DNA of 64,000 nt from Halorussus caseinilyticus (lineage in GTDB: Archaea > Halobacteriota > Halobacteria > Halobacteriales > Haladaptataceae). The notes under the pieces are model-generated. The model ran no database searches. It had not been told where the DNA came from and worked only from the letters and a program-made list of their open reading frames with translations. Location of the stretch: assembly GCF_029338395.1 (NCBI RefSeq), contig NZ_CP119809.1, positions 2,046,001 through 2,110,000 of the forward strand, written 5' to 3'. A program made the translations under genes and the position numbers. Position 1 is the first letter of the stretch. Each line of letters opens with the position of its first letter. This document shows positions 16,033 through 60,755 of the stretch, in pieces.

Positions 16033-16361
16033 CCGATAGGGTCCCAACCCCGAACGCCTTGAAAGTTGACTGCCTACTTTGAACAGTGAAGTGTAACGGA
16101 CCACGGGACGCGCACCGCGAGCGCCGACAGGCGCGAGCGGTGCGGGGGCCACGAGTCGCGGTGCGGTTTGCGGTCTGATTGGTTCGAGCCTGAAGCTAGC
16201 GTCTCGTCGTCGTTCTCCGTCCCGGATGCGAAGAGCGAACGCGGCCCCTTCCCCCAGCGAACGACACTCTCCATCTCAGCGAACGACTCTCCCCCGACGA
16301 ACGACCTTCTCCGACCTGCCGACCCATCCTTTATAAGACGCTCCCGCGCGAACGACGAGGC
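16033..16361. repeat. 329-nt intergenic gap with family-1 dispersed repeat (about 16100-16210)
   Basis: Contains ggtgcggtttgcggtctgat continuing into tggttcgagcctgaagctag, a word combination that recurs with small changes at 36395-36440, 54025-54165 (inverted) and 60600-60690. The flank is rich in gcgcaccgcgagcgccgac-type runs. The remainder (16215-16325) holds short direct repeats of cgaacgac separated by c/t tracts, then the promoter of the next gene. No coding seen. Confidence 0.6.
16330..16337 (+). promoter_or_regulatory. TATA box of the 16362 gene
   Basis: tttataag lies 25-32 nt before ATG 16362, the spacing for a leaderless or near-leaderless archaeal transcript. Confidence 0.55.
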
Positions 16362-38235: not shown

Positions 38236-39690
38236 CTACTCGTCGTCGCCGAGCGCCTGCCACGAGAGGCGCAGGTTCCGGGCCGCGCTGGTCTGGTCGA
38301 TGCGCCGGGCCGTCGTCCGGTTGGGCGCGTTCGCCAGCGTCTCGTCGTCCTCGGTAGCCACGGCGTCGAACGCCTCTGCGAGTTGGTCCAGCGTGTCCTT
38401 GCCCTCGATTTCGGTGGGTTCGGTCATCAGCGCCTCCGGGACGATTTCGGGCCACTTGGTCGTCGGCGGGTGGACGCCGTAGTCCAACATGCGCTTTGCG
38501 ACATCGGCGGCGTCTTGGTCGCCCGCGCTGGCGACGAACTCGTGGTGGAACGGTTCGAAGGGCACCTCGTAGTCGATTTGGCTGGCGAGGTAGTTGGCGT
38601 TCAGCACCGCCTTCGCCGAGGCGTCGGTCAGGCCCTCGTCGCCGAGGCGCGCGATGTAGGCGTAGGCCTTCACGAGGACGAGCCAGTTGCCGTGGAATCC
38701 GTGGACCTTCCCGAAGGTGTTCTCGGGGTCGAACAGTTCGTAGCCGCCGCCCTCCTCGGCCTCCCGGACCCGCGGGGCGGGCAGGAACTCCGCGAGGCGG
38801 TCGGTGACGCCGACTGGACCGGCACCGGGACCGCCGCCGCCGTGGGGCGTGGCGAACGTCTTGTGGACGTTGTAGTGCATGATGTCGAAGCCCATGTCGC
38901 CCGGCCGGGCCTGTCCGAGCAGTGCGTTGAGGTTCGCGCCGTCGTAGTAGAGCAGACCGCCCGCGTCGTGGACGATTTCGGCGATGTCCTCTATGTCGCG
39001 CTCGAACAGGCCGAGCGTGTTCGGGTTCGTGAGCATGAACAGCGCGGTCCGGTCGCTCGCGGCCGCTTCTAGCGCCTCCAAGTCCACGCGGCCGTCGTCG
39101 CCCGAGGGGAGTTCCACGACTTCGTAGCCCGCGAGGGCGGCGCTGGCGAAGTTGGTGCCGTGGGCGCTGTCGGGCACGATAATCTCGTCGCGCCGGTCGC
39201 CCTCACGGTTCTGCTCGTGGAACGCCTTGGCGACGAGGATGCCGGTGAACTCGCCCGCCGCGCCAGCTGGCGGTTGGAGGCTCACGGCGTCCATCCCGCC
39301 GATTCGCGCGAGGTAGTCCTGTAGCCCGTGCATGAGCGCGAGGCTCCCCTGCACGCTCCGCTCGGAGCGGTCGGGGTGGACCGCCGCGCTCGGAAGCGCG
39401 GCCACGTCCTCGGTGAACTTGGGGTTGTACTTCATCGTACAGCTACCGAGGGGATAGGGTCCGGACTCGACGCCGTAGTTCATCTGGCTCAGCCGCGTGT
39501 AGTGGCGCGCGAGTTCGGGTTCCTCCAGCGCGGGGAGTTCGAGGCTGTCGCGGGTCAACTCGTCGGGGAGCGGCGACTCGACTTCGACCTCCTCGCTGTT
39601 CTTCTCCGAGAGGAGCGGTTCGTACTGCCCCTCGGCGTCTTCGCCGCCCTTCGCCGCGCCGTCGGTCCATCGCGCTTGGTCGTAGTTCAT
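38236..39690 (-). CDS. gcvPB: glycine dehydrogenase (decarboxylating) subunit 2
   Basis: A 484-residue beta half of the two-subunit P protein. It decarboxylates glycine with PLP and passes the aminomethyl group to the lipoyl arm of GcvH. The PLP lysine is in MHYNVHKTFATPHGGGGPGA, VPDSAHGTNFASAALAGYEV is a phosphate/substrate segment, and YDGANLNALLGQARPGDMG follows. The start codon follows directly on the stop of gcvPA with no gap. With gcvPA it forms the downstream half of the split gcv cluster. Confidence 0.96.
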   Translation of the reverse strand: MNYDQARWTDGAAKGGEDAEGQYEPLLSEKNSEEVEVESPLPDELTRDSLELPALEEPELARHYTRLSQMNYGVESGPYPLGSCTMKYNPKFTEDVAALPSAAVHPDRSERSVQGSLALMHGLQDYLARIGGMDAVSLQPPAGAAGEFTGILVAKAFHEQNREGDRRDEIIVPDSAHGTNFASAALAGYEVVELPSGDDGRVDLEALEAAASDRTALFMLTNPNTLGLFERDIEDIAEIVHDAGGLLYYDGANLNALLGQARPGDMGFDIMHYNVHKTFATPHGGGGPGAGPVGVTDRLAEFLPAPRVREAEEGGGYELFDPENTFGKVHGFHGNWLVLVKAYAYIARLGDEGLTDASAKAVLNANYLASQIDYEVPFEPFHHEFVASAGDQDAADVAKRMLDYGVHPPTTKWPEIVPEALMTEPTEIEGKDTLDQLAEAFDAVATEDDETLANAPNRTTARRIDQTSAARNLRLSWQALGDDE

Positions 39691-41034
39691 CTAGGCCACC
39701 TCCTCGAAGGCCGCGACGAGTTCGTCCGCGGCGTGTTCGTTGCTGTCCGTGATGCACACCTGTACCTCGTGTTCGCCCACGGCGTGGACCGCGAAGCCCT
39801 CGGCTTCGAGGTCCGAAGCGACCGCACCCGCCGGTTGGTCGGTGTGGGCGACGAACTCCCGGAAGTGGTGTCGGTCGTGGACCGGCGCTTGGAGACCGGT
39901 CACGTCGTCCAAACGCTGAGCGAGGTCCGCCGCGAGGCGCACGCAGTCGTTGGCGAGGTCCACGAGTCCGTCGGGACCGAGGTAGGCCGCGTGGATGGCG
40001 GTTCGGAGCGCGACCCACGCCTGATTCGTGCAGATGTTGCTCGTGGCCCGCTCCCGGCGGATGTGCTGTTCGCGGGTCTGGAGCGTCAGCGTGTAGGTTC
40101 GCTTGTCGGCGGCGTCCTCGCTCGCGCCGACGAGACGGCCGGGGACCTGCCGCACGAAGTCCTCGCGGCAGGCGAACAGGCCGAGTCCCATCCCGTAGGC
40201 CGTGGGGAGACCGAGGGTCGCGGCGTCGCCGACCACCACGTCAGCGCCGACGCTCTCGGGTTCTCGAAGGACGGACAGGGCCACGGGGTCGGAACCGAGG
40301 CAGAACAGCGCGGCGTGGTCGTCGGCGAGGTCCCCGACCGCCGCCAGATGCTCCTCTATCGTCCCGCGGGTGGTCGGGTTCTCGACGTACACCATCACGG
40401 CGTCGTCGTCGATTGTCTCGGCCAGCGCGTCCGTATCGACGTTGCCGTCGTCGGTGGCGAACGTCTCGACGGAGAGACCCGCACCGTCGGTGTAGTTTTC
40501 GAGAACATCGCGGCGCTCGGCCAGCAGGTAGTCGGGCACCAGCACCCGGTCGCCGTCGGTCGAGCGGACGCGCGCCGCGAGCAGGGCCGCCTCCGCGAGC
40601 GCGGTCGCGTGGTCGTACATCGAGGCGTTGACGATGCCGAGACCGGTCAACTCGACCAGCATCGACTGGTACTCGAAGAGCGCTTGCAGGAACCCCTGCG
40701 TAATCTCGGGTTGGTACTGGGTGTAGGAGGTCAGAAACTCCGACCGGAGCGAGAGGTGGTCCACCAGCGAGGGCACGTAGTGTTCGTAGTGTCCCCGGCC
40801 GAGGAACTCGGTCAGGTCGTCGTTGCGCGAGAGCAGGCCCCGGACGTGGCGTTCTGCCGCCTGCTCGCTTCTGGCCTCGATACCGAACTCCCCGTCGAAC
40901 GCGACCGACTCGGGGATGTCGAACAGTTCCGTCACGTCGTCCGCGCCGACCGCCTCTAACATCGCCGCGGTCTCGTCGGCGGTGTGCGGTGCGTACGGGC
41001 TTCCCCGTTCCCCTGACTCGTGTCGTCCGCTCAT
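39691..41034 (-). CDS. gcvPA: glycine dehydrogenase (decarboxylating) subunit 1
   Basis: A 447-residue alpha half of the split P protein. [58 protein letters not shown] and YAGLTGYPGT-like [20 protein letters not shown] are family features. The protein lacks the PLP lysine, which sits in GcvPB. A TATA-like ttaaaa lies about 30 nt before its ATG on the minus strand, so it may have its own promoter. Upstream comes the CHAT island instead of gcvH. Confidence 0.96.
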
Positions 41035-41348
41035 GTGAACGGTGCTACGGAGCGTATCGTTTTAAGATGGAGGTATTCGGTCGCGCTTTCGGGGTAATTA
41101 CTGCGAAAGTCGTGGGAACTCGCTAGTGAACTGTGGTCGGACGCGGACGGACTGAGAAATAGTACGAAATGTTTTCTAATAATACATACCTATACGATTT
41201 TTTAAGCAAGGAATATGTCGTTCAGGACTATCTGAGGATATGCCTCAGAGAGCGACTCGACGCTGTTGCTCGGAGTGAAGCAATCAGTTGTCCGAGGGTT
41301 TTTAACGACTGCCTGTGACCACCGTCGTACAGTCGAGGGGTTCCAATC
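41035..41348. other. 314-nt AT-rich junction between gcvPA and the CHAT island
   Basis: Holds the gcvPA promoter side (ttaaaa near 41065), then AT-rich DNA (41150-41215: ttttctaataatacatacct) unlike the neighbours, and the promoter region of the CHAT gene (gggtttttaacg near 41296-41307, about 45 nt before the ATG). No gene or clear attachment repeat could be found. It marks the left edge of the insertion in the gcv operon. Confidence 0.5.
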
Positions 41349-43529
41349 ATGTCTCTCCATCCGCGATTCGAATTGCCGTCCGACGAGACCGGACTCGACA
41401 TCATCGACCCGGTAGAAACTCGCCACTTTTCGCTTCGCACGGACGAACCAGTGGACCCGACGCCCGCCGATACCGAGCCGTTCGCCTTTCCGGTCGATAC
41501 GGCCCGTCGTATTTCAGTCGGCGTGCTTCGTCTCCCGTACCTGCTTCCCGTAGACGTTCGGACGCCGGACGGCGACCCGTTACGGTCGGTCGATAGTCCG
41601 TCCTCGCACGAACTCGCGGCCGACGACTACTTGTTGGAACTCCACTCGCCTATCAAAGTGTATCTGCGCGTTTCGGGGCGCGTCCACGTCGAGGCGACCA
41701 CCGAGCGGGTCGTCTTCGAGTTCGGTGACGACGCCACTATCGACATCGGCGCGCGGTCGTACCACAGCGCTCCGGGCGCGACGATTACGGTCCCGGACGA
41801 CCCCGAAGCGATGATGAAAGCCGTCTCGACGTTCCCGTCGGCACTCAAGACGCTCTCGCCGGAGCGTGCGTGGCCGACCCTGCGCGGACATCCGCCGCGG
41901 GTCGAACGCGGCGACGAACTCGAAATTCCCTCGGACCTCGAGGTGCCCGACACGGGCATCCGGGTAACGGTGCCGTCCGAATACTGGGCGGTGTACACCG
42001 TTGCTCCGCTGGCGTACTACCTCGGCGCAGAGGTCGTCCCCGGCGAGAGCGCGCACGTAACTGCCGATACTGGGGCCGCACTCCATCTCGGTGACGAACC
42101 GGGAGAAATCGCCGACGCGACGGAGGCCCTACTCAAGCGGGTCTTCTTCCTCGACTGCGTGGTCAGGACCGAAGGCCTGTATCCCGACGAACTCCACGAG
42201 CGCAACGTCCTCGAAGCACGCGCGGACATTGACTTGGACTTCGCGGACCTCTACGAGGTCTCGCCCGCCGAGCGACTCGCGGTGTACCTCACCATCCCCG
42301 ACGAGGCAGTCGAAGCCATCGCTTCGCCGTGGCACCGCGTCACGCACACCGAGGCGAACCCCGGTCCCGAGGTGGCCGAACTCCTGCCCTACCTCGTCAA
42401 CGACCTGTCGCTGGTCCGGCCGAAGGTCGGAAGCGAGCGTTCGGCGGCGCAGTCCGAAATCGACGACGAGTTGGACGACGCGCTGGACTCGTTCCTCCGG
42501 CGGCCCGGCCCGAGCGTGGAGGCCGCCGCCATCGAGGATTTCTACCGGTCCGCGGACGCGCCGAACCTGCGTCGAGACGGCGAGTCGGGTAGCTCGGTCT
42601 CGGGCGTGCCGGACTTGGACGAGTACGTGACGCTCCCGGAGGTGGACGCGCTGGAACAGGCGTGGGTCGGCGACGGGACGCCGATTCGCGGGACGAAGCT
42701 ACTCCGGGAGGCGTTCGCCAACGAGACGCCGGAACCCTCCGACGGCACCATCGACATCGCGGTGGTCTGTAACGACGAGCGGATGCGCGAAGAATTGGCC
42801 TCTGTCGGCGACATCTACGGAAGTCGAGACGACGTGCCGGTCAGTCTCACCTCGAAAATCGGCGTCTCGACCGGCGAGTTGCGGGAACTACTCGCCGAGA
42901 ATTACGACGTGTTTCACTTCATCGGTCACATCGACGGGCAGGGCTTCGAGTGTCCCGACGGGATTTTGGACGCCGGAACTGTCGAGGAAGTTAATGCGAC
43001 GACTGTGCTTCTGAATGGTTGTCGCTCACACGACCAAGGCATCGAGTTGGTGAAAGCGGGTGCGAGTGCGGCTATCGTGAGTCTCGCGGATTTGTTCAAT
43101 TCCGGCGCTGTTGAAATCGGCGAAACCATCACTCGCTTGCTCTATCACGGATTTGATGTCGGTACTACAATGAAGATAATTCGAGAATATACTTCGATTG
43201 GCGACCGATACGTAGTTATCGGCAATCCCGGCGTGCCCGTAGTACAATGTGATGGATTTCTGCCGATACTCTGCCACATAACTACGAAACCCACCGAAAG
43301 TGAGTCACTTAATGTTCAACCAATAGCATATCCGGTTCCAGAAATAGGAATCGGCACTGTTTTTGAGCCAGAAATATTTGAAACCAATTATTATCATTTA
43401 GCCATTGGAGAACACGCCGATATTAACATCACACGTGATAAACTAAAAAGTTGGATTTCGGAAGATTACGAACCTGTAATTTTTAATGGAGAGCTGATTT
43501 GGGGAAGTGAACTACTGACTGAAATGTAA
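41349..43529 (+). CDS. full-length CHAT caspase-like protease with variable C-terminal tail (locus A)
   Basis: A 726-residue protein. Residues 1-430 are a haloarchaea-specific N-terminal region (VGARSYH-like GARSYHSAPGATITVPDDP; LRGHPPRVERGDELEI; APLAYYLGAEVVPG). CHAT follows, with catalytic His527 (VFHFIGHIDGQGF) and Cys558 (LLNGCRSHDQG), 31 residues apart as in caspase-like dyads. Residues from about 615 form a tail (YVVIGNPGVP to the end) with AT-rich codon use unlike the rest. The tail motif ELIWGSE recurs in modified form in the other three tails. The last part of the gene is duplicated at 43735-44634 with a different tail. The tail meets a 43-residue convergent gene one base after the stop. 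It may be a defence or conflict protease; that is inference. Confidence 0.85.
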   Translation: MSLHPRFELPSDETGLDIIDPVETRHFSLRTDEPVDPTPADTEPFAFPVDTARRISVGVLRLPYLLPVDVRTPDGDPLRSVDSPSSHELAADDYLLELHSPIKVYLRVSGRVHVEATTERVVFEFGDDATIDIGARSYHSAPGATITVPDDPEAMMKAVSTFPSALKTLSPERAWPTLRGHPPRVERGDELEIPSDLEVPDTGIRVTVPSEYWAVYTVAPLAYYLGAEVVPGESAHVTADTGAALHLGDEPGEIADATEALLKRVFFLDCVVRTEGLYPDELHERNVLEARADIDLDFADLYEVSPAERLAVYLTIPDEAVEAIASPWHRVTHTEANPGPEVAELLPYLVNDLSLVRPKVGSERSAAQSEIDDELDDALDSFLRRPGPSVEAAAIEDFYRSADAPNLRRDGESGSSVSGVPDLDEYVTLPEVDALEQAWVGDGTPIRGTKLLREAFANETPEPSDGTIDIAVVCNDERMREELASVGDIYGSRDDVPVSLTSKIGVSTGELRELLAENYDVFHFIGHIDGQGFECPDGILDAGTVEEVNATTVLLNGCRSHDQGIELVKAGASAAIVSLADLFNSGAVEIGETITRLLYHGFDVGTTMKIIREYTSIGDRYVVIGNPGVPVVQCDGFLPILCHITTKPTESESLNVQPIAYPVPEIGIGTVFEPEIFETNYYHLAIGEHADINITRDKLKSWISEDYEPVIFNGELIWGSELLTEM

Positions 43530-43530
43530 T

Positions 43531-43662
43531 CTACGGTCCGACCTTCGCACAACACTTTTCGATTTCCACCCCTAAATAAAATAAAGAGATTGACATAAAC
43601 CAAGCGACTTCAACTAGTTTCGGACTCTCCCTAATCCATTTTGTGATGTCAAACTGTGCCAT
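43531..43662 (-). CDS. 43-residue hydrophobic peptide gene paired with the locus A full-length tail
   Basis: Minus-strand ATG 43662, stop TAG 43531-43533, one base from the CHAT stop. MAQFDITKWIRESPKLVEVA leads into WFMSISLFYLGVEIEKCCAK and ends VGP. One membrane-spanning or amphipathic helix is likely. It is 43 residues long and shares MAQFD, W, ESP and CCAK-x-GP with the peptide at 44603-44734. No known family is certain; it resembles short haloarchaeal proteins ending in GP that I recall as DUF7503. Confidence 0.65.
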   Translation of the reverse strand: MAQFDITKWIRESPKLVEVAWFMSISLFYLGVEIEKCCAKVGP

Positions 43663-43734
43663 CGTATATTTTGCTAATGGACGTAGCACCTTCCAATTTT
43701 CCACTAAAAATAACAAATTAATAATGTTTGGCTG

Positions 43735-44634
43735 TGGGTCGGCGACGGGACGCCGATTCGCGGGACGAAGCTACTCCGGGAGGCGTTCGCCAACGAGACG
43801 CCGGAACCCTCCGACGGCACCATCGACATCGCGGTGGTCTGTAACGACGAGCGGATGCGCGAAGAATTGGCCTCTGTCGGCGACATCTACGGAAGTCGAG
43901 ACGACGTACCGGCCGACGTGACCTCGAAAATCGGCGTCTCGACCGGCGAGTTGCGGGAACTACTCGCCGAGAATTACGACGTGTTTCACTTCATCGGTCA
44001 CATCGACGGGCAGGGCTTCGAGTGTCCTGACGGGATTCTGGATGCTAAGACTGTCGAAGAGGTCAACGCGACGACTGTGCTTTTGAACGGTTGTCGGTCG
44101 CACGACCAAGGCGTCGAGTTGGTGAAAGCGGGTGCGAGTGCGGCTATCGTGAGTCTCGCGGATTTGTTCAATTCCGGCGCTGTTGAAATCGGTAAGACGC
44201 TATCTCGGTTGCTCTATCACGGATTTGGTATCGGTGCCGCGATGAAGATTATTCGTGAGTATACTTCGATTGGCAACAGGTACGTAGTTGTGGGTGACCC
44301 GCTATCGCTAGTCGCACAATGTGAAAGTGGAATACCGACACTATGCCACATCAGCAAACGTTCTGGAGAAAGCTCACGAATTAACATTAGTCCACATGCG
44401 TATCCGACTCAAAAGCGTGGAATAGGGTCTAGTTTTAGTCCTTCATTCTTCGATGGTGACCAATATTATATCGCCGTAGGGAAGTACGACGACCTAACGA
44501 CTACACGGGATGCAGTTGAAAAATGGACTGCAACCGATTACGACCCTTTAGTTGTGAATCGAGAATTAGTCTGGAGTGGAGCATGGTTCCAGCAAGACGA
44601 AACTACGGCCCCGATTTCGCGCAACAACCCGTAA
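43735..44634 (+). pseudogene. silent CHAT cassette with alternative tail (locus A)
   Basis: From 43734 the DNA is nearly identical to 42662 onward (offset 1072), covering WVGDGTPIRGTKLLREAF, the CHAT His (VFHFIGHIDGQGF) and Cys (LLNGCRSHDQG) and on to YTSIGNRYVVVGD. Then the tail diverges (LSLVAQCESGIPTLCHISKR, ending with ELVWSGAWFQQ). The frame is open from 43714, but the copy has no start codon before a GTG at 43834 and no visible promoter, so it looks like a donor cassette. Its 3' end overlaps the convergent peptide gene by 32 nt. Confidence 0.75.
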
Positions 44635-44734
44635 TCGTTATCCACTGCTCGCTTAGAGCTAGCGTGACTACCCAAACCACTTGTAATAGCCGAGGGGACT
44701 CGTAAAACCAATCACTGAAATCAAACTGTGCCAT
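44603..44734 (-). CDS. 43-residue hydrophobic peptide gene paired with the locus A silent tail
   Basis: Minus-strand ATG 44734, TAG at 44603-44605, overlapping the end of the cassette. MAQFDFSDWFYESPRLLQVV continues WVVTLALSEQWITITGCCAK and ends SGP. Sixteen or more positions match the peptide at 43531-43662, including the start and the C-terminal CCAK-x-GP, but the middle differs. It keeps an intact frame although the cassette beside it is silent. Confidence 0.62.
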   Translation of the reverse strand: MAQFDFSDWFYESPRLLQVVWVVTLALSEQWITITGCCAKSGP

Positions 44735-44882
44735 CGTACGTGATGCTACCAACTGTAGCAACTTCCGACTTTCTACTATAGTTTATTTTACTACAATTCT
44801 AACTATTGAGAATCCCGTATTTACGTTCCAGACAAATCTATAACGTGTGGTAGTAATTGTATCTACCACGATTAAGAGGGAA

Positions 44883-44892
44883 ATTTTATAAA
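44883..44892 (+). promoter_or_regulatory. TATA box for the DUF7504-like gene of locus A
   Basis: attttataaa lies 35-43 nt before ATG 44926 and only 14-22 nt before ATG 44905, which favours the 44926 start. Confidence 0.5.
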
Positions 44893-44925
44893 TTTCCTCT
44901 GAAAATGACAGTCATACCAACACCT

Positions 44926-45687
44926 ATGTCGTCCCCAACTCCCCGCGATTTCACACGCGGGTCCGACGAATCGCCACCCGCCGACGACCTCACGGACTTT
45001 CTCGGTCTCCTGAACGAGCTGAAATCCACCGGCTGTAACCTGCTCGTCGTCGGCGATGCACCGCGCGAGCTGTTCACGCAGGCGAGTTCCCGGATGTTCG
45101 GGGACGACGATACGGTCCGCTATCGGACGCTCGCAGTTACGGACGCGACTCCCGAGAGCATCGCCGAGCGACTTCCCGACCCGAGCGAGTCGCCGCGGCC
45201 CGTCGGCGAGACGACCCACGTCCTCAACCACGCCGGGGCGCTCCGGTCGGTCACGACCGCGACGGACCCGAACACTCCGCCGGACCTCGCTGGCGTCAAG
45301 GAGACCCGTATCGCGGACCCGCAGTTGGCCGGACTTCAGGCCGCGGTGGTCGAAGCTATCGAGGAGTTCGCAACTCGCGCTGGCTCGCTCCACCCCGGGG
45401 ACCTCCGGATTGGAATCGACTCGCTGGAGCCGCTTTTGGACTTCTACGGCGAAGACGTAGTTCGGCGCTGTCTGCGCATCGTCGGGGGCTACGTCCGCGA
45501 CTACGACGCGATGGCCCACTACGTTTTGCCGAAACCGTACGATAGCGACGTTGTACAGACCTTCGCCGACGACATGGACGCTATCGTAGAAATTCGGTTG
45601 TCCGACTCGGCCGACGACGGTCGAGTCGGCGAGCAACGGTGGCACGTCCCGAGTCGGGACCTGTCCGTCGGTTGGGCGTCGATTTGA
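44926..45687 (+). CDS. DUF7504-like haloarchaeal protein (RecA-like fold without Walker A), locus A
   Basis: A 253-residue protein from ATG 44926 (the frame can also start at 44905). ELKSTGCNLLVVGDAPRELF resembles the first strand and loop of a KaiC/RecA-like domain but lacks a GKT P-loop, so nucleotide binding is doubtful. It is clearly paralogous to the protein at 48600-49289: GCNLLVVG/GSNILVTG, LRIGIDSLEPLL/LRVGVDSLFPLV, MAHYVLP/MAHYHLR. It follows the CHAT cassette on the same strand in both loci. It is also convergent with gcvH, 10 nt away. Its role is unknown; the neighbour pattern suggests a partner of the CHAT protein. Confidence 0.75.
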   Translation: MSSPTPRDFTRGSDESPPADDLTDFLGLLNELKSTGCNLLVVGDAPRELFTQASSRMFGDDDTVRYRTLAVTDATPESIAERLPDPSESPRPVGETTHVLNHAGALRSVTTATDPNTPPDLAGVKETRIADPQLAGLQAAVVEAIEEFATRAGSLHPGDLRIGIDSLEPLLDFYGEDVVRRCLRIVGGYVRDYDAMAHYVLPKPYDSDVVQTFADDMDAIVEIRLSDSADDGRVGEQRWHVPSRDLSVGWASI

Positions 45688-45697
45688 ACCGACGCGA

Positions 45698-46081
45698 CTA
45701 CTCTATCTGTTCTCGGTACTCGTCGGCGGTCAGCAACTCGTCCAAGCCGCTGTCGTCGGCCAACTCCACTTCGAGCATCCACCCCTCGCCGAAGGGGTCG
45801 TCGTTGACGAGTTCGGGCTGGTCTTCGAGCGCGTCGTTGACCGCCGTGACGGTGCCGTTGACCGGCGCGTAGAGGTCCGAGACCGCCTTGATGGACTCCA
45901 CGACGCCGAACTCCTCGTCTTGGGTGAGTTCGTCGCCCTCGCTCGGGAGTTCGACGAACACCACGTCGCCGAGTTCGTCCTGCGCGAAGTCGGAGATGCC
46001 GACTCTCGCGGTGCCGTCGGTCGTCTCTACCCACTCGTGTTCGCTACTGTACTTTCGGTCTTCAGGGACTTCGAAGCTCAT
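45698..46081 (-). CDS. gcvH: glycine cleavage system H protein
   Basis: A 127-residue lipoyl carrier that shuttles the aminomethyl group between the P and T proteins. The lipoylated lysine is in [38 protein letters not shown] starts it, and [18 protein letters not shown] is the conserved beta-sandwich. It begins 2 nt after gcvT. In many haloarchaea gcvPA follows; here a 4.7-kb CHAT island intervenes. Confidence 0.96.
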
Positions 46082-46083
46082 TG

Positions 46084-47175
46084 TTAGTCACTCAGGAATG
46101 GCGTGTTCGCAATCTTTGCTTTTTTCGACTGGCCGCGGACCATCACGCGGACGACGGTCCCGGCGTCGGCGTACTCCGAGGGGACGTAACCCAGCGCGAT
46201 GGGTTCGTTCAGCGTCGGACTCATCGTTCCGCTGGTGACTTCGCCGATAACGTGGTCGTCGGTGTCGGTCACGTCGTAGCCGTGGCGGGCCACCCCGCGG
46301 TCCACGAGTTTGATGCCGACGAACTCCTCGTCTGTTCCCTCCGCATCGACGCCTTCGAGGGCGTCCCGGCCGACGAACTCGGTGTCGAGTTTCACCGTCC
46401 ACCCGACGCCCGCCTCGTAGGGGTTTCGGGGGTCCTCGTCGGCGTCGAAGTCTTGGCCCGACAGCAGGAAGCCCATCTCCATCCGGAGGGTGTCGCGGGC
46501 ACCGAGCCCGCAGGGCTGGCAGTCGAACGACTCCCAGACCGCTTGGGCCGCCTCGACGGGGACGATAATCTCGAAGCCGTCCTCACCGGTGTAGCCGGTT
46601 CGGGCGGTCCAACACGACACGCCGTCGAACTCGACGTACTTGCCGTCGAATTTCGAGAGGTCCGTCACCGACCCGTCGGCTACGTCCGCCACGAGGTCCG
46701 GAGCGTCGGGACCCTGCACCGCGTACATCGCGTACTCGTCGGTGACGTTCTCGACGGTGGCGTCGAGGTCCCACTCGTCGCGGTGGTCGGTCCACCGGCG
46801 GTGCATCTGTTCGTCGTGGCCCGCGTTGGGGACGAAGAGGTACTCGGCGTCCTCGTCATCGGGCAGTCGATAGACCACGGTGTCGTCCAGAATCGTCCCC
46901 TCCTCGTCGGTTATCATCGAGTAGTGGGAGTCGCCGCGGCCGAGTTCGGTCACGTCGTTGGACGTGAGCTTCTGCATCAGTTCGCGGGCGTCCGGGCCGC
47001 CGACTTGGATTTGGCCCATGTGAGACACGTCGAAGATGCCCGCCTCCTCGCGGACCGCGGCGTGTTCGGCCTTGATGGAGTCGAACTCCACGGGCATGTC
47101 CCACCCGCCGAACTCGGTGAACGTCGCTCCCTCGCCAGCGTGAACGTCGCGCAGTGGCGGCTTCCGAAGCGTCAT
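46084..47175 (-). CDS. gcvT: glycine cleavage system T protein (aminomethyltransferase)
   Basis: A 363-residue folate-dependent aminomethyltransferase that releases ammonia and forms methylene-tetrahydrofolate. It starts [40 protein letters not shown] and [20 protein letters not shown] are the family N-terminal motifs, [18 protein letters not shown] the folate site, and [20 protein letters not shown] the C-terminal barrel. First gene of the gcvT-gcvH pair. Confidence 0.96.
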
Positions 47176-47308: not shown

Positions 47309-47488
47309 TCACGCGGGTTCGACGACGATTTGACCGTCGCGGAGTTTGTAGACGAGACGGTCGCCCTCCTCGACTTCGAGTCCGTCCTCGGCGAACTCCT
47401 CGCGGACGGCCTTGATGAGGCTGATTCGCCATCGCTGGGTGACTGTCGTCGTTCCGAGTATCTTCTCTTCGGATTCGTCTGAACTCAT
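47309..47488 (-). CDS. AbrB/MazE/SpoVT-fold small DNA-binding protein, copy 1
   Basis: A 59-residue swapped-hairpin protein. MSSDESEEKILGTTTVTQRW starts it; RISLIKAVREEFAEDGLEVE and EGDRLVYKLRDGQIVVEPA complete the AbrB layout (TTTVTQRWRISLIKAVRE in place of KGQVTIPKEIRE). It probably binds DNA as a dimer and may be an antitoxin-like regulator or an autoregulator. It has no toxin gene beside it. It is a tandem paralogue of the gene at 47583 (about two-thirds identical). Confidence 0.78.
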   Translation of the reverse strand: MSSDESEEKILGTTTVTQRWRISLIKAVREEFAEDGLEVEEGDRLVYKLRDGQIVVEPA

Positions 47489-47582: not shown

Positions 47583-47759
47583 TTACGCCAATTCGATGAC
47601 TATTTTTCCGTCAGCGAGTTTGTAGACGAGTCGGTCGCCTTCCTCTATCTCGTCGGCGTCCTTCTCGAGTTCTTCGCGGACGGCTTTGATGAGACTGATG
47701 CGCCATCGCTGGGTGACTGTCGTCGTACCGAGTATCTTTTCCTCCATTTCGTCAGTCAT
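47583..47759 (-). CDS. AbrB/MazE/SpoVT-fold small DNA-binding protein, copy 2
   Basis: A 58-residue paralogue: MTDEMEEKILGTTTVTQRWR, then ISLIKAVREELEKDADEIEE and GDRLVYKLADGKIVIELA. The core EKILGTTTVTQRWRISLIKA is unchanged from copy 1. It lies 94 nt upstream on the same strand; both genes have AT-rich upstream DNA, so each may have its own promoter. Confidence 0.78.
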   Translation of the reverse strand: MTDEMEEKILGTTTVTQRWRISLIKAVREELEKDADEIEEGDRLVYKLADGKIVIELA

Positions 47760-48599: not shown

Positions 48600-49289
48600 T
48601 CAGAGTTCCATCCACGGGGTCTTGGCGTCGATTTTCGGCGCGTACCAGCGCTGTTCGGGGTTCTGGCGCGGTCGCTTGCGGAGCTCGACGCGCGCGTCGA
48701 ACAGCGGCATGAGTCGCTCGACCACTTCGTCGTCGGCCGGGACGCGGAGGTGGTAGTGAGCCATCCCGTGAACTCCGCGGACCGTCGCCCCGAGCGTCCG
48801 CAGGGCGTGTTCGGCCGCCGAGCGGTCCTCTTCGACCAGCGGAAACAGCGAATCGACGCCCACGCGGAGTTCCGCGGGGTCGAGACCCTCGGCCTTCTCG
48901 TCGTAGAACGCGATTGCGGACTGAATCTCGTCACAGAGCTGTCGGGCGTCGTCGGACCCGAGCGGGTCCAACCCGGCGGTGACGCCGCCCGCGGTGGCCG
49001 GGACCGACCGCTCGCCGCGGCGCTGGTCGATAATCCACGTCGTGGGGTCGTCGAAGGCGGCGTCCTCGGGGAGTCGGGACTCGGCGCTGGTTATCGTCTG
49101 GTCGGTCAGCGCGAGTATCCGAAAGCGGCGCTTCTCGCGCCCGTAGAGGAATCTAGAGGCTCGCGCGGAAACCTCGTCGGGTACCTCACCGGTGACGAGG
49201 ATGTTGCTCCCGACCTGCTTGAGGTTGGCGAGCCACTTCGTGAAGCGAGGGTTCGCTCCGCTCCCGCGAAACCGTAGCTCTGAGTCCAT
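48600..49289 (-). CDS. DUF7504-like haloarchaeal protein (RecA-like fold without Walker A), locus B
   Basis: A 229-residue paralogue of the protein at 44926-45687. LANLKQVGSNILVTGEVPDE aligns with LNELKSTGCNLLVVGDAPRE, and AELRVGVDSLFPLVEE and VHGMAHYHLRVPADDEVVER align as well. The C-terminus differs (ending KTPWMEL). It is downstream of the CHAT cassette on the same strand, as in locus A. A TATA-like ttttat about 30 nt upstream indicates its own promoter. No P-loop is present. Confidence 0.76.
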   Translation of the reverse strand: MDSELRFRGSGANPRFTKWLANLKQVGSNILVTGEVPDEVSARASRFLYGREKRRFRILALTDQTITSAESRLPEDAAFDDPTTWIIDQRRGERSVPATAGGVTAGLDPLGSDDARQLCDEIQSAIAFYDEKAEGLDPAELRVGVDSLFPLVEEDRSAAEHALRTLGATVRGVHGMAHYHLRVPADDEVVERLMPLFDARVELRKRPRQNPEQRWYAPKIDAKTPWMEL

Positions 49290-49521
49290 TTGTCAAGGTT
49301 GTCGGACGTAGCTTAGATAAAATTTCCGGAAGGTGAGGCGGCAGAGGGCCGAGAATCGGGACGTTGCCGCCGCACCGTCTCGGTCCTCGAAACCGATTCG
49401 AGACGGATAATTCACTAGCTATGGGCATGTTTTAACTAATCTCTGCTAGAATCCACCTGTAAGGTCATCTCGATAACTGACACCACTTTTTACAATATAT
49501 TTCATAGTTAGAATACTTTAG

Positions 49522-49531
49522 AAAAATATAA
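49522..49531 (+). promoter_or_regulatory. TATA box of the locus B peptide gene (silent-cassette side)
   Basis: aaaaatataa lies 28-37 nt before ATG 49559. The same element in the same context occurs at 50563-50572. The DNA around it (tttcatagttagaatacttt) is identical in both copies. Confidence 0.55.
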
Positions 49532-49558
49532 TTTCAGATAGCAGAGTGTTATGCATGC

Positions 49559-49693
49559 ATGTCGAAGAACACCATGCTCGACACGCTCGCACAGCACCCG
49601 CGACTAATCGGCTTCCTGTTCACCACCGGGATGGTTCTGGTACAGGCAGGGAATGTCGCGGCGAACAATACAGGAATGACGAACGGACCATAA
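49559..49693 (+). CDS. 44-residue hydrophobic peptide gene paired with the locus B silent tail
   Basis: ATG 49559 to TAA 49691-49693, four bases from the cassette stop on the other strand. MSKNTMLDTLAQHPRLIGFL continues FTTGMVLVQAGNVAANNTGM and ends TNGP. One hydrophobic helix (RLIGFLFTTGMVLVQAG). The first 36 residues match the peptide at 50600 in all but a few places, while the last eight differ. It resembles short haloarchaeal proteins I recall as DUF7503; this is not checked. Confidence 0.7.
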   Translation: MSKNTMLDTLAQHPRLIGFLFTTGMVLVQAGNVAANNTGMTNGP

Positions 49694-49697
49694 GCCA

Positions 49698-50396
49698 CTA
49701 CAGGTCAGAAAGCGAAATTTCGTTGCTCCAGTAGAGTTTGTTATCAACTTCAACAGGTGCAAATTGAACATCTAAAATTGAGTTCAGCTCTTTTTCACTT
49801 ACGCGAAACGTATCGAGTAAGCCAGAGGCCAGATGGCGAGTCGTCTCTTCATCCATGAACTTCGCCAAGGTTCCGAGTCGATAGGACGAACTAGGGTACG
49901 AATAATGGCTAATCAGATACTCGCTTCCAACCCTTTTAATGTCGAACTTTACTAAACCACCGCTATCACCCTCACAAAGTGACAACCCGCCATCCCCAAT
50001 AGTGACGTACTCGATGGACACCAGCACCTCCTTCACGGCGATGCTCAGCGCCGAGCGCAACGAGAACCCTGAGTTCAGCAACCGCGCTAGCGCCCGACCC
50101 ACCTTCGTCGCGGCCGAGTTGACCACCTCCGCGAGCGTCACCACGCCGCCGGTACTCCCCTTCTCGACCAGTTTCGCGCCTTGCTCGTAAGACCGGCACG
50201 CATTCAGTAGGAACGCCTCGACGCCCACCGACTCCAGCGAGTCGGCGTCGAGGTGGCCGTCAACACACCGGAAACCTTCCTCGTCGGCGTGGCCGATGTA
50301 GTGCAAGAAGTCCGCCGAGGACTCCAGCAAATCGGCGAGTTCGGCCGTGGTCAACTCCTCGTGAATCGTCACGTCGTAGTTCACGAAGTCGCACAA
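49698..50396 (-). pseudogene. silent CHAT cassette with alternative tail (locus B)
   Basis: Its minus-strand DNA is nearly identical to the CHAT part of the full gene at 50735-52873, from DFVNYDVTIHEELT through His (FLHYIGHADEEGF) and Cys (LLNACRSYEQG) to IEYVTIGDGGL. It then switches to a different tail (SLCEGDSGGLVKFDIKRV, ending VDNKLYWSNEISLSDL). The homologous part begins inside the domain (near 50391), where upstream DNA turns AT-rich; the only start is a TTG. No promoter is visible. It probably serves as a donor of tail sequence. Confidence 0.75.
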
Positions 50397-50562
50397 GTCG
50401 AATATACACGCCCTAACTTTTTTAGATGCTAAATGAAAGCAAAATAAATAATTTGTATTCCAAACGGACGTTTTAACTAATTGCTACTAGAACCAATATA
50501 TTAGGTCAACTCAACAACCGATACCACTTTTTACAATATATTTCATAGTTAGAATACTTTAG

Positions 50563-50572
50563 AAAAATATAA
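50563..50572 (+). promoter_or_regulatory. TATA box of the locus B peptide gene (full-length side)
   Basis: aaaaatataa lies 28-37 nt before ATG 50600; an exact copy of the element at 49522-49531. Confidence 0.55.
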
Positions 50573-50599
50573 TTTCAGATAGCAGAGTGTTATGCATGC

Positions 50600-50734
50600 A
50601 TGTCGAAGACAACCATGCTTGACACGCTCGCACAGCACCCACGACTAATCGGTTTCCTATTCACCACCGGAATGGTTCTGGCACAAACAGGAAACGCCGC
50701 GGCGAATCAAATCGGTGCAAATCCTGGTCCCTAA
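50600..50734 (+). CDS. 44-residue hydrophobic peptide gene paired with the locus B full-length tail
   Basis: ATG 50600 to TAA 50732-50734. The CHAT stop on the opposite strand begins at the very next base (50735). MSKTTMLDTLAQHPRLIGFL continues FTTGMVLAQTGNAAANQIGA and ends NPGP. Same hydrophobic helix as its neighbour copy, different last eight residues. All four peptides of this kind in the window end in Gly-Pro. Confidence 0.7.
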   Translation: MSKTTMLDTLAQHPRLIGFLFTTGMVLAQTGNAAANQIGANPGP

Positions 50735-52873
50735 TTACAAAACTTCGGGAAGGTCATTACCCCAATAGAGTTCTTCCTCTATGAGTACAGGGACGATATT
50801 TTCATCGTTGTTTATGAAATCCATTATTTCGTCCTTTGTGAATTGAAAGGGCCTAAGCGAGCCAGATGATAGATAATTAGTTGATGACTCTTCTGCTATA
50901 CTATTTGCTATAGTTCCAAGACCATGCGACGAGCAAGGATGAGCATAAGGGACGAAAATATATTGATTCTCCTCCTCTCCCTCCTCAATACGGTACGAAA
51001 TAGGACATCCGTTGTCGTTTTCACACAACATCAACCCGCCATCCCCAATAGTGACGTACTCGATGGACACCAGTACCTCCTTCTCGGCGATACTCAGCGC
51101 CGAGCGCAACGAGAACCCTGAGTTCAGCAACCGCGCTAGCGCCCGACCCACCTTCGTCGCGGCCGAGTTGACCACCTCCGCGAGCGTCACCACGCCGCCG
51201 GTACTCCCCTTCTCGACCAGCTTCGCGCCTTGCTCGTAAGACCGGCACGCATTCAGTAGGAACGCCTCGACGCCCACCGACTCCAGCGAGTCGGCGTCGA
51301 GGTGGCCGTCAACACACCGGAACCCCTCGTCGTCGGCGTGGCCGATGTAGTGCAAGAAGTCCGCCGAGGATTCGAGTAGGTCTCCAAGTTCCGCGACGGT
51401 CAACTCCTCGTGAATCGTCACGTCGTAGTTCACGAAGTCGCGCAGGCCGTAGAACTCGCCGACGACGCTCTCTTCGTCCATCTCCGGGTCGTTGCAGACG
51501 ACGTGGACCTCGATGTCCGAGTCGTCCGGCGGCGTGCGCTCGGCCTGCCGACGCAGGGACGCTATCGTCACCTTGTTCGCGTTGATGGGGTAGCCCTCGC
51601 CCACCCACGCGTGTTCGATGGTCTCTGCCGGTTCGACCCGAAACATCTCGTCGTCCGTGGTCCACGTCTCGCGCGTGTTCCGGGTCAGTGCGTCGTCGCG
51701 CCCGCCCCGCGTCGAAGCGTCGTCGCTCGCGCTCCGGGTGAAGTCGCCCGAGGCGACGGCCGACCGCGTGAACTCGTCCAGTTCCTCGAACGTCGGCTCG
51801 ACCGACTGGTCGGTCGGGTCCTCGGGCGTCCGCAACAGCGCGAGTTCGTGGGCGAAGTACGGGAGCGCCGCCGCGTTCCCGGCCGTCGGCACCACGTCGG
51901 TCGTGAGGTGCCAGTCCAGTACGTGCGGTTCGAGCGCGTCGAACGGCACCGAGAGGTACCGAGGCAGTTGCTCGGCCAGCGGTCGGCCGTAGAGGTCCGG
52001 GAAGTCGAGGTCCACCGCGGGTTCGACCTGCTCGCGCTCGTGGAGTTCGACCGGGTAGTAGCCCTCGGTCCGAGTCAGGCAGTCGAGGAAGAACACCTGC
52101 TTCAACACGCGGTTGACCGTCGCCTCGTAGCCACCCGCGCCGTCGAGGTCGTACTCGAAGTCGCCCGCGACGAGTCGGGGGTCGGACCCGGCGACGAGTT
52201 CGGCACCGAGGTAGTACGCCAGCGACGCGCTCGGATAGACGTGTTCTCGGTCGGGCGGCAGGACGATTTCGACGCCCGTGTCGGGAGCGTCGATGCCGTC
52301 CGAGACAGCAAACGAGTCGCCGCGCTCGACCCGCGGCGGATGTCCGCGCAGGGTCGGAAACGACCGCTCGCACGAGGTGGTCTTGAGCGCGGACCCGAAC
52401 AGCGAAACCGCCGCCATCGCGTCTTCCACGTCGTCGGTCACGGTAATCGTCCCGAGCGGTCGCTCGTGGAACGACCGCGCGCCGACCCGAACCCGACGAC
52501 GCTCGCCGAAACTGGCGGTGACGGACTCGTCGCCCGGCCGTATCTCGAAGGGACCGTCCACGACGAGGTAGAGTTTCATCGGCGTACTCTGGAGTTCGAC
52601 GAGGTAGCGGCCAGCACCGAACGTCTGGGTCTCGCTGGTGGTCGCGTCGGCGAGCATTTCGCCGGTGTGTCGCCGGACGACGGTCGAGACCAGTTTCGGA
52701 ATCTCGACCGCCGAGGCTTCGAACCCCACCGCAACGTCCACGGGAAAGTAGAAACCGTCGGTCGATTCGGACTCCGGTTCGACGGACTCGGGCGTGTACA
52801 ACTCGAACCGGGCGTTCTCGATTGGGTCGAAGACGCCGAGACCCGAACGGTGGTCGAGTACGTCGAACTCCAT
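50735..52873 (-). CDS. full-length CHAT caspase-like protease with variable C-terminal tail (locus B)
   Basis: A 712-residue paralogue of the locus A protein. ATG 52873 (MEFDVLDHRSGLGVFDPIEN) is chosen because it aligns with the locus A start; the frame runs on upstream through non-protein-like sequence. Shared N-terminal blocks: VGARSFHERPLGTITVTDD, LRGHPPRVERGD, ASLAYYLGAEL, VFFLDCLTRTEGYYPVELHE. Catalytic His512 (FLHYIGHADDEGF) and Cys543 (LLNACRSYEQG). Tail from about residue 605 (GLMLCENDNGCPISYRIEE to EEELYWGNDLPEVL) with more A/T than the rest. Divergent from a gene at 53039. Confidence 0.85.
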   Translation of the reverse strand: MEFDVLDHRSGLGVFDPIENARFELYTPESVEPESESTDGFYFPVDVAVGFEASAVEIPKLVSTVVRRHTGEMLADATTSETQTFGAGRYLVELQSTPMKLYLVVDGPFEIRPGDESVTASFGERRRVRVGARSFHERPLGTITVTDDVEDAMAAVSLFGSALKTTSCERSFPTLRGHPPRVERGDSFAVSDGIDAPDTGVEIVLPPDREHVYPSASLAYYLGAELVAGSDPRLVAGDFEYDLDGAGGYEATVNRVLKQVFFLDCLTRTEGYYPVELHEREQVEPAVDLDFPDLYGRPLAEQLPRYLSVPFDALEPHVLDWHLTTDVVPTAGNAAALPYFAHELALLRTPEDPTDQSVEPTFEELDEFTRSAVASGDFTRSASDDASTRGGRDDALTRNTRETWTTDDEMFRVEPAETIEHAWVGEGYPINANKVTIASLRRQAERTPPDDSDIEVHVVCNDPEMDEESVVGEFYGLRDFVNYDVTIHEELTVAELGDLLESSADFLHYIGHADDEGFRCVDGHLDADSLESVGVEAFLLNACRSYEQGAKLVEKGSTGGVVTLAEVVNSAATKVGRALARLLNSGFSLRSALSIAEKEVLVSIEYVTIGDGGLMLCENDNGCPISYRIEEGEEENQYIFVPYAHPCSSHGLGTIANSIAEESSTNYLSSGSLRPFQFTKDEIMDFINNDENIVPVLIEEELYWGNDLPEVL

Positions 52874-53822: not shown

Positions 53823-54279
53823 GGTTGTCGGACCGGCAGGTGCGTTCCGCGCGCCGGTCGGCCCGAACTGGTGCGGTATCGTACTTGAACCTTAGTAGAG
53901 GTATTTTTGTATTTGTCTTAGCAATGTTTTTAATTGTTAGAAAAATGTTTGTGTTGCTTAAGTGGCGGGTTGCTTCAGGGTCGGACCGGGAGACCGCTCC
54001 GCACCGCAAACGTAGGACGACGACCCGAGAGCTAGCTTCAGGCTTGAACCAATCATACCGCAAACCGCACCGCCGCCGCGGGCCACACCCTCCCCAACCG
54101 ACTCCTTCGCTCCCTGCGGTCGCTCAGTCGTCCCTCGCGCGGCTTGGCGCGAGATGAACTCGCGCCAGCGCGCGCCGGGTGGTTCGTCCGGAAAAGTATG
54201 CGCCGAGTCGGGAAGTCTGTCCCGAGAAGCGTTCCCCGTCAGAAGCCCCGAGAAGCGCGAGCGGTCGGTTCTCGCGCCC
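53823..54279 (-). repeat. 457-nt gap with a full family-1 dispersed repeat (54020-54165)
   Basis: Read on the minus strand, 54165 to 54020 gives gcgagggacgactgagcgac, gaaggagtcggttggggagg, gtgtggcccgcgg, tgcggtttgcggtatgattg and gttcaagcctgaagctagct. The same order is seen on the plus strand at 60545-60690. The remaining part is the AT-rich promoter of the zinc-finger gene. No gene seen. Confidence 0.68.
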
Positions 54280-60468: not shown

Positions 60469-60755
60469 ACGAGGCGCTTCCGGGAATCGGCGACCGGCGT
60501 GCGCTATCCTCGAACCTCCCTTCTGGCGCGCGCTGGCGCGGCCCTGTGCCGCGCCAACCGCGTGAGGGACGACTGAGTGACCGGAGGGAACGAAGGAGTC
60601 GGTTGGGGAGGGTGTGGCCCGCGGTAGCGGGGCGGCGGCGGTGCTGTGCAGTTGCGGTATGATTGGCTCAAGCCTGTAGCTAGCTCCCTCGAACTTCCGT
60701 CCATCCGAGCAACACGCTCCAACGAACTTCCTCGAACGCTCCGACCGCGAACAAC
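60469..60755 (+). repeat. 287-nt gap with a full family-1 dispersed repeat (60545-60690)
   Basis: Contains, in order, gtgagggacgactgagtgac, gaaggagtcggttggggagg, gtgtggcccgcgg, tgcagttgcggtatgattgg and ctcaagcctgtagctagctc, the same sequence of words as the inverted copy at 54020-54165. No gene seen. Confidence 0.68.

Follow-up and report, generated by a model that had tools for sequence, protein, structure and literature searches.

Why would a full-length gene for a caspase-like protein be followed by a second, open copy of its 3' part that has no start codon? The question is posed by a 64,000-nucleotide stretch of the Halorussus caseinilyticus genome (contig NZ_CP119809.1, positions 2,046,001 to 2,110,000 of the forward strand), which we call the window and number from its first letter. 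A preliminary description, which covered a single locus (locus A), had read the frame at 43714-44634 as a start-less silent cassette of the upstream CHAT gene. The same arrangement is present at a second locus, B, and it is locus B, together with a small partner gene of the DUF7503 family, that makes the case. Our findings suggest that haloarchaeal CHAT proteins exchange variable tails by recombination, much like bacterial Rhs toxins, and the cassette is probably a displaced C-terminal module of the CHAT gene (we put the probability of this Rhs-like displacement at about 0.6).

The start-less module of locus A

Locus A lies between gcvH/gcvT and gcvPA/gcvPB. Its full-length gene A1 (41349..43529, forward strand, 726 amino acids), an open reading frame (ORF) with a fold match and with Pfam CHAT matches in its family, consists of an N-terminal part of about 430 amino acids, the CHAT region (42663-43229) and an AT-rich variable tail (43230-43526). 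The GC content of these parts is 0.66, 0.57 and 0.40, respectively; in the tails it falls to 0.40-0.47. Convergent to A1, on the reverse strand, lies a DUF7503-like membrane-protein ORF (43531..43662), which has the position typical of the family and ends in -GP. The start-less CHAT copy (43735..44301, forward) is 91.4% identical in nucleotides to 42663-43229 and continues into an alternative tail (44302..44634, forward) that is 54% identical to the A1 tail. The cassette has its own DUF7503-like ORF (44603..44734, reverse), with 46.5% identity to the first copy.

As had been described, the frame 43714-44634 joins the CHAT copy with no ATG 5' of the CHAT homology: the sole ATG close to the junction, at 43724, belongs to a different frame, and the earliest in-frame GTG, ATG and TTG (43834, 43855 and 43867) all fall within CHAT. 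The His and Cys of CHAT (H527 and C558 of A1) are indeed retained, in the motifs FHFIGH and LLNGC. Given these two residues and the in-frame internal starts, the cassette might yield a short CHAT-tail protein of its own, translated from the GTG or the ATG. We regard this as extremely unlikely, since an internal start would truncate the conserved CHAT region, and since no family member of such a form was found elsewhere among the matches listed. A sigma-70 promoter scan has no bearing on this point, as it is not meaningful for archaea. The tail had also been considered intact to its stop. The frame is open to 44634 but overruns the position equivalent to the A1 stop by about 12 codons, into the antisense DUF7503-like ORF, and the original stop may therefore have been lost, possibly as a first sign of relaxed constraint.

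When CHAT and tail were compared separately, as the preliminary description had proposed, the two CHAT copies differed at 49 of 567 aligned bases (92% amino acid identity), with a nonsynonymous divergence (dN) of ~0.04 and a synonymous divergence (dS) of ~0.26-0.28 by the NG86 method. The tails (98-99 codons) share 37% of their amino acids. Past the tail, the right flank of locus A shows weak similarity (58 bp at 76%).

A second case at locus B

Locus B has the same tandem layout on the other strand and in unrelated sequence (B1 and A1 share 37% amino acid identity), and this repetition within one window places the structure of locus A beyond chance. The full-length gene B1 (50735..52873, reverse; CHAT ~51032-51607, tail 50738-51031) is accompanied by a DUF7503 gene (50600..50734, forward; PF24335, E 1.5e-15). 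Downstream of B1, the start-less cassette B2 (49698..50405, reverse) joins a CHAT fragment (49983-50395), 95.2% identical to B1 in nucleotides with 20 differences in 413 bases, to an alternative tail whose identity to the B1 tail is ~50-54% in nucleotides and 33-36% in amino acids, varying with the alignment. It also has its own DUF7503 gene (49559..49693, forward), which is 80% identical to the first in amino acids and matches PF24335. Past the tail, identity resumes at 88.6% across 237 bp that cover DUF7503 and its upstream region. This flank includes a right-hand homology arm of 87 bp upstream of and into DUF7503 (50523..50609), identical to 49482-49568 (P 5e-5 for the longest run).

Constraint and mosaic identity of the CHAT copies

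The differences between the locus A CHAT copies are clustered and leave identical tracts of 173, 107 and 79 bp, which none of 20000 random scatters reached. At locus B the identical tracts measure 128 and 101 bp (longest run, P 0.0098; top three, P < 5e-5). The proposed check for gene conversion between the expressed gene and the cassette thus returned a mosaic, which is compatible with conversion and crossover alike. Neither cassette contains internal stops or frameshifts. When the cassette changes at both loci were polarised with the relative G011, 24 were synonymous and 15 nonsynonymous. This share (15/39) rejects the neutral expectation of ~0.72 nonsynonymous (P ~1e-5) and indicates that most cassette divergence arose under constraint. 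A random scatter of neutral decay, named at the outset as an outcome that would speak against the silent cassette, is thereby rejected.

These results also bear on the view that the cassette is simply a partial tandem duplicate or a pseudogene, decaying and without a role. The absence of a start, the possible loss of the tail stop in cassette A and the rarity of such cassettes would fit it. However, a plain duplication would hardly yield a tail that differs by 46% beside a CHAT region that differs by 5-9%, and do so twice; the low nonsynonymous share and the conflict between the locus B trees (see below) also stand against it. We consider it unlikely.

Rarity of start-less cassettes

We screened the open-frame lengths of 135 listed matches from 18 genomes of the genus, in which the plasmid copies of the H. 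caseinilyticus genome itself (G000) count twice through contig overlap. The only start-less cassettes were those of loci A and B. The screen extended to ~95 matches in ten further genomes of the family and to the best matches of 35 others, and the short frames inspected there were frameshifted full genes or contig ends; these wider lists comprise about the 150 best matches, so that rare cassettes may exist elsewhere. Among the rejected candidates, the short CHAT frames G016:C10, G016:C8, G015:C19, G025:C28 and G022:C1 are frameshifted full genes whose N-terminal part adjoins in another frame, G020:C1 (915681) is a complete gene that carries a stop, and G084:C11 runs off its contig end. Duplicates on the plasmid contigs C3 and C4 (L021/L023 and L022/L024) were likewise dismissed as recent tail swaps. 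They are 99.9% identical over 11 kb and differ almost only by indels, which makes contig-end overlap of one assembly likelier; the 11-kb copies are probably unresolved ends of circular plasmids.

CHAT regions and tails have separate histories

At locus A, where the gcvH/gcvPA synteny is conserved, no cassette was found in five relatives. In their orthologs of A1, the N-terminal part and CHAT are 61-86% identical in amino acids and the tails 21-43%. Across orthologous genes, nucleotide identity is 70-90% in CHAT and 40-58% in the tail. Between G016 and G002, for instance, CHAT is 90% identical and the tail 46%, against a background of 39 +/- 3%. In the closest discordant ortholog pairs, the CHAT dS is 0.17-0.36 and the tail dS is saturated or high, which favours replacement of the tail over fast amino acid change alone. 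Three plasmid genes form a similar patchwork: the tail of L036 is 78% identical to that of L035 and 49% to that of L037, with CHAT at 88-89% in both pairs.

Direct support for exchange comes from locus B, where the CHAT and tail trees conflict. In the CHAT tree, B1 joins cassette B2 (support 99/95). In the tail tree, B1 joins G007 (100/100), and cassette B2 groups with the tail type expressed by most orthologs. Approximately unbiased (AU) tests reject the opposite groupings (p 1.15e-4 and 4.4e-4). Core and tip are thus evolutionarily decoupled, as in Rhs-type displacement. The cassette tails are, moreover, the more ancestral-like ones. The tail of cassette A is nearer to the ortholog tails than that of A1 in 6/6 orthologs, and the tail of cassette B shares 61 sites with G011, compared with 36 for the B1 tail. 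No cassette was found at the locus B ortholog of G011.

An old duplication, in which gene conversion homogenised the CHAT copies while the tails diverged in place under diversifying selection, would account for the mosaic CHAT identity, and it could appeal to the locus A tails, which may be sisters. Against it, the cassette is absent from all syntenic relatives checked, fast amino acid change leaves the saturated synonymous sites of the tails unexplained, and the locus B tails are not sisters. This scenario appears very improbable to us.

A probable origin of the cassettes by displacement

The displacement of a C-terminal module draws on the tandem layout shared by two loci of unrelated sequence, the sharp switch from 91-95% identity in CHAT to ~54% in the tail, the homologous flank at locus B, the mosaic CHAT copies, the conflict between the locus B trees and the ancestral-like cassette tails. 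The expressed gene would acquire a new module through homologous recombination within its conserved CHAT region, the module consisting of the 3' part of CHAT, a variable tail and a convergent DUF7503 with its upstream region. The event may have been of the kind seen in rhs genes, with an incoming (allelic) module being inserted. The former module would be pushed downstream, without a start and probably without a promoter of its own, and the displaced older tail would persist as a promoterless leftover or as a reservoir. A subsequent deletion between the two CHAT repeats might either return the old tail to the gene or remove it.

Several points weigh against this account. The order of events is reconstructed from one genome per species. 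In the locus A tail tree the two tails are possibly sisters (weak support, 70/75), in which case exchange there is argued from the divergence contrast, without a tree conflict. The CHAT differences of cassette B match G011 at fewer sites than those of B1 (4 vs 17), which is at odds with a cassette of purely native origin. Finally, a search of 392 genomes returned no near-identical donor for the A1 tail; its best matches were the cassette A tail (40% amino acid identity) and locus A orthologs (39% and 32%).

In bacterial rhs genes, an arriving module joins the core, and the previous tip is moved downstream together with a piece of the core whose length varies (PMC2935791). The CHAT loci resemble the Rhs loci of Enterobacteriaceae in the combination of a conserved core with a variable low-GC C-terminus, in the dissociated alternative ends with variable-length core fragments directly downstream of the intact gene, as found at both A and B, and in the confinement of exchange to one clade of cores (PMC2935791). 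They differ in three respects. The core is an archaeal caspase-like CHAT domain instead of the YD-repeat toxin carrier, and no YD-repeat core or delivery domain was found in the CHAT proteins. The CHAT tails are homologous domains of ~95 amino acids that have diverged, whereas Rhs tails are unrelated toxins. The partner gene DUF7503 is convergent rather than co-oriented and downstream. The silent cassettes of Neisseria mafB and the orphan modules of contact-dependent inhibition (CDI) systems likewise place start-less alternative C-terminal modules next to an expressed gene. Those differ from the haloarchaeal CHAT genes in encoding secreted toxins with immunity genes and in having several cassettes per locus.

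The cassettes might instead be maintained as silent donors that repeatedly convert the expressed gene and so switch its tail, as in pilS and vls. In keeping with this, homologous arms flank a variable core, clearly so at B (CHAT on one side, the 87-bp DUF7503 tract on the other), the CHAT copies bear conversion-like identical tracts, and the frames are open, with neutral decay rejected. Yet each locus has one donor, in place of the array of several silent donors of pilS and vls; the listed matches from 17 other genomes of the genus include no cassette; and cassette A may have lost its stop. With one cassette per locus, and only two among the 135 listed matches, programmed conversion fits no better than displacement of an older tail, and a maintained donor role seems doubtful. 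The original proposal that the cassette is recent or maintained by exchange holds in part, in so far as it was not found in the five syntenic relatives and its CHAT is mosaic. Displacement would explain how the cassettes arose, and they may then serve as a reservoir.

The CHAT family and its partner genes

Pfam CHAT (PF12770) was matched in 19 of 60 full-length family members, and His527 and Cys558 are invariant in an alignment of the 60 sequences. The AlphaFold model of the CHAT protein has a mean pLDDT (predicted local distance difference test) of 88. In a fold search it matched, over residues ~327-633, gingipain R (Z 20.0, root-mean-square deviation (rmsd) 3.5, 242 residues), a SAVED-CHAT filament (Z 16.5, rmsd 2.2, 169 residues), separase (Z 15) and Csx29. 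The CHAT proteins are thus putative proteases with a predicted gingipain/separase/caspase-like fold and a His-Cys pair. They share this predicted fold and the residue pair with separase, gingipain, TPR-CHAT (Csx29) and SAVED-CHAT, from which they differ in the N-terminal part, the extra C-terminal tail domain and the haloarchaeal partners DUF7503 and DUF7504. Neither PADLOC models of known defence systems, nor the PDB searched by sequence profile, nor RNA families gave a match, and the literature searched contained nothing on DUF7503, DUF7504 or CHAT in haloarchaea.

DUF7503 is a small membrane-type ORF, and 67 of its 71 Pfam matches in the genus are convergent and 6-49 bp past the CHAT match. 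Both locus B copies match PF24335; the two locus A copies lie below the Pfam threshold and were assigned by position, similarity and the -GP end. Every DUF7503-type ORF convergent to a CHAT gene that we inspected terminates in Gly-Pro. Upstream of DUF7503, an AT-rich motif, TTTCTAAAGTATTCTAACTATGAAATATAT (50470-50600 and 49429-49560; L054 5286-5340), is strongly conserved between the copies and in G011, and is likely a promoter or regulator site. Orphan DUF7503 genes (L111 4406-4516, L112 4192-4311 and L113 4057-4179) have neither CHAT nor tail homology nearby and were rejected as tail-only cassettes. The DUF7504 genes of locus A (44926..45687, forward; PF24336, E 4e-46) and locus B (48600..49289, reverse; PF24336, E 1.4e-50) belong to a family with a predicted KaiC/RecA-like fold.

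The family, made up of CHAT and DUF7503 and usually DUF7504, is near-universal in Halobacteriales: it was found in 362 of 392 genomes, often several times per genome. In several species the CHAT/DUF7503/DUF7504 module lies within the glycine-cleavage cluster, from gcvH to gcvPA (38236-47175 in the window; L054-L058; L106), and in G084, of another family, a CHAT gene likewise adjoins gcvPA. Elsewhere in the window there are two similar tandem small AbrB-like ORFs (47309-47488 and 47583-47759, reverse) and dispersed copies of a repeat, up to 177 bp long and with 80-89% identity (~54010-54190, 60511-60686 and 16158-16220).

Functional implications

A caspase-like fold that is combined with a rapidly changing C-terminal domain and linked to a small membrane protein suggests a sensor-effector system. 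The tail may serve for recognition within a caspase-like system of conflict or stress response, and DUF7503 may be its partner or substrate. Conflict systems include sensors diversified by diversity-generating retroelements (DGRs), CHAT proteins among them, in which the variable part stands on or beside the CHAT effector (PMC10907252). The haloarchaeal proteins resemble these in carrying a hypervariable part with a caspase-like effector (PMC10907252). The source of variation differs, being error-prone reverse transcription in the DGR systems and recombination between homologous modules here.

Strong caspase-like activity has been reported in Haloferax volcanii without gene homologues (PMC3615174). 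DUF7503 and DUF7504 were both matched in this species, in a set of 14 control genomes, and from this co-occurrence a CHAT member is presumably present as well, which would make the haloarchaeal CHAT family a candidate for the gene behind the activity. The full proposal, that haloarchaeal CHAT is a polymorphic recognition or cell-death system whose trans-species tail alleles are exchanged with the adjoining DUF7503 part, and that it is the missing gene of the H. volcanii activity, seems to us rather unlikely. If the displacement reading is right, the tail-swapping known from bacterial Rhs/CDI-type loci would extend to archaea, in a caspase-like family that occurs in most of the Halobacteriales genomes sampled. 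The tail and DUF7503 would be the parts under diversifying pressure, which makes their specificity testable, and haloarchaeal caspase-like activity would gain a concrete gene candidate.
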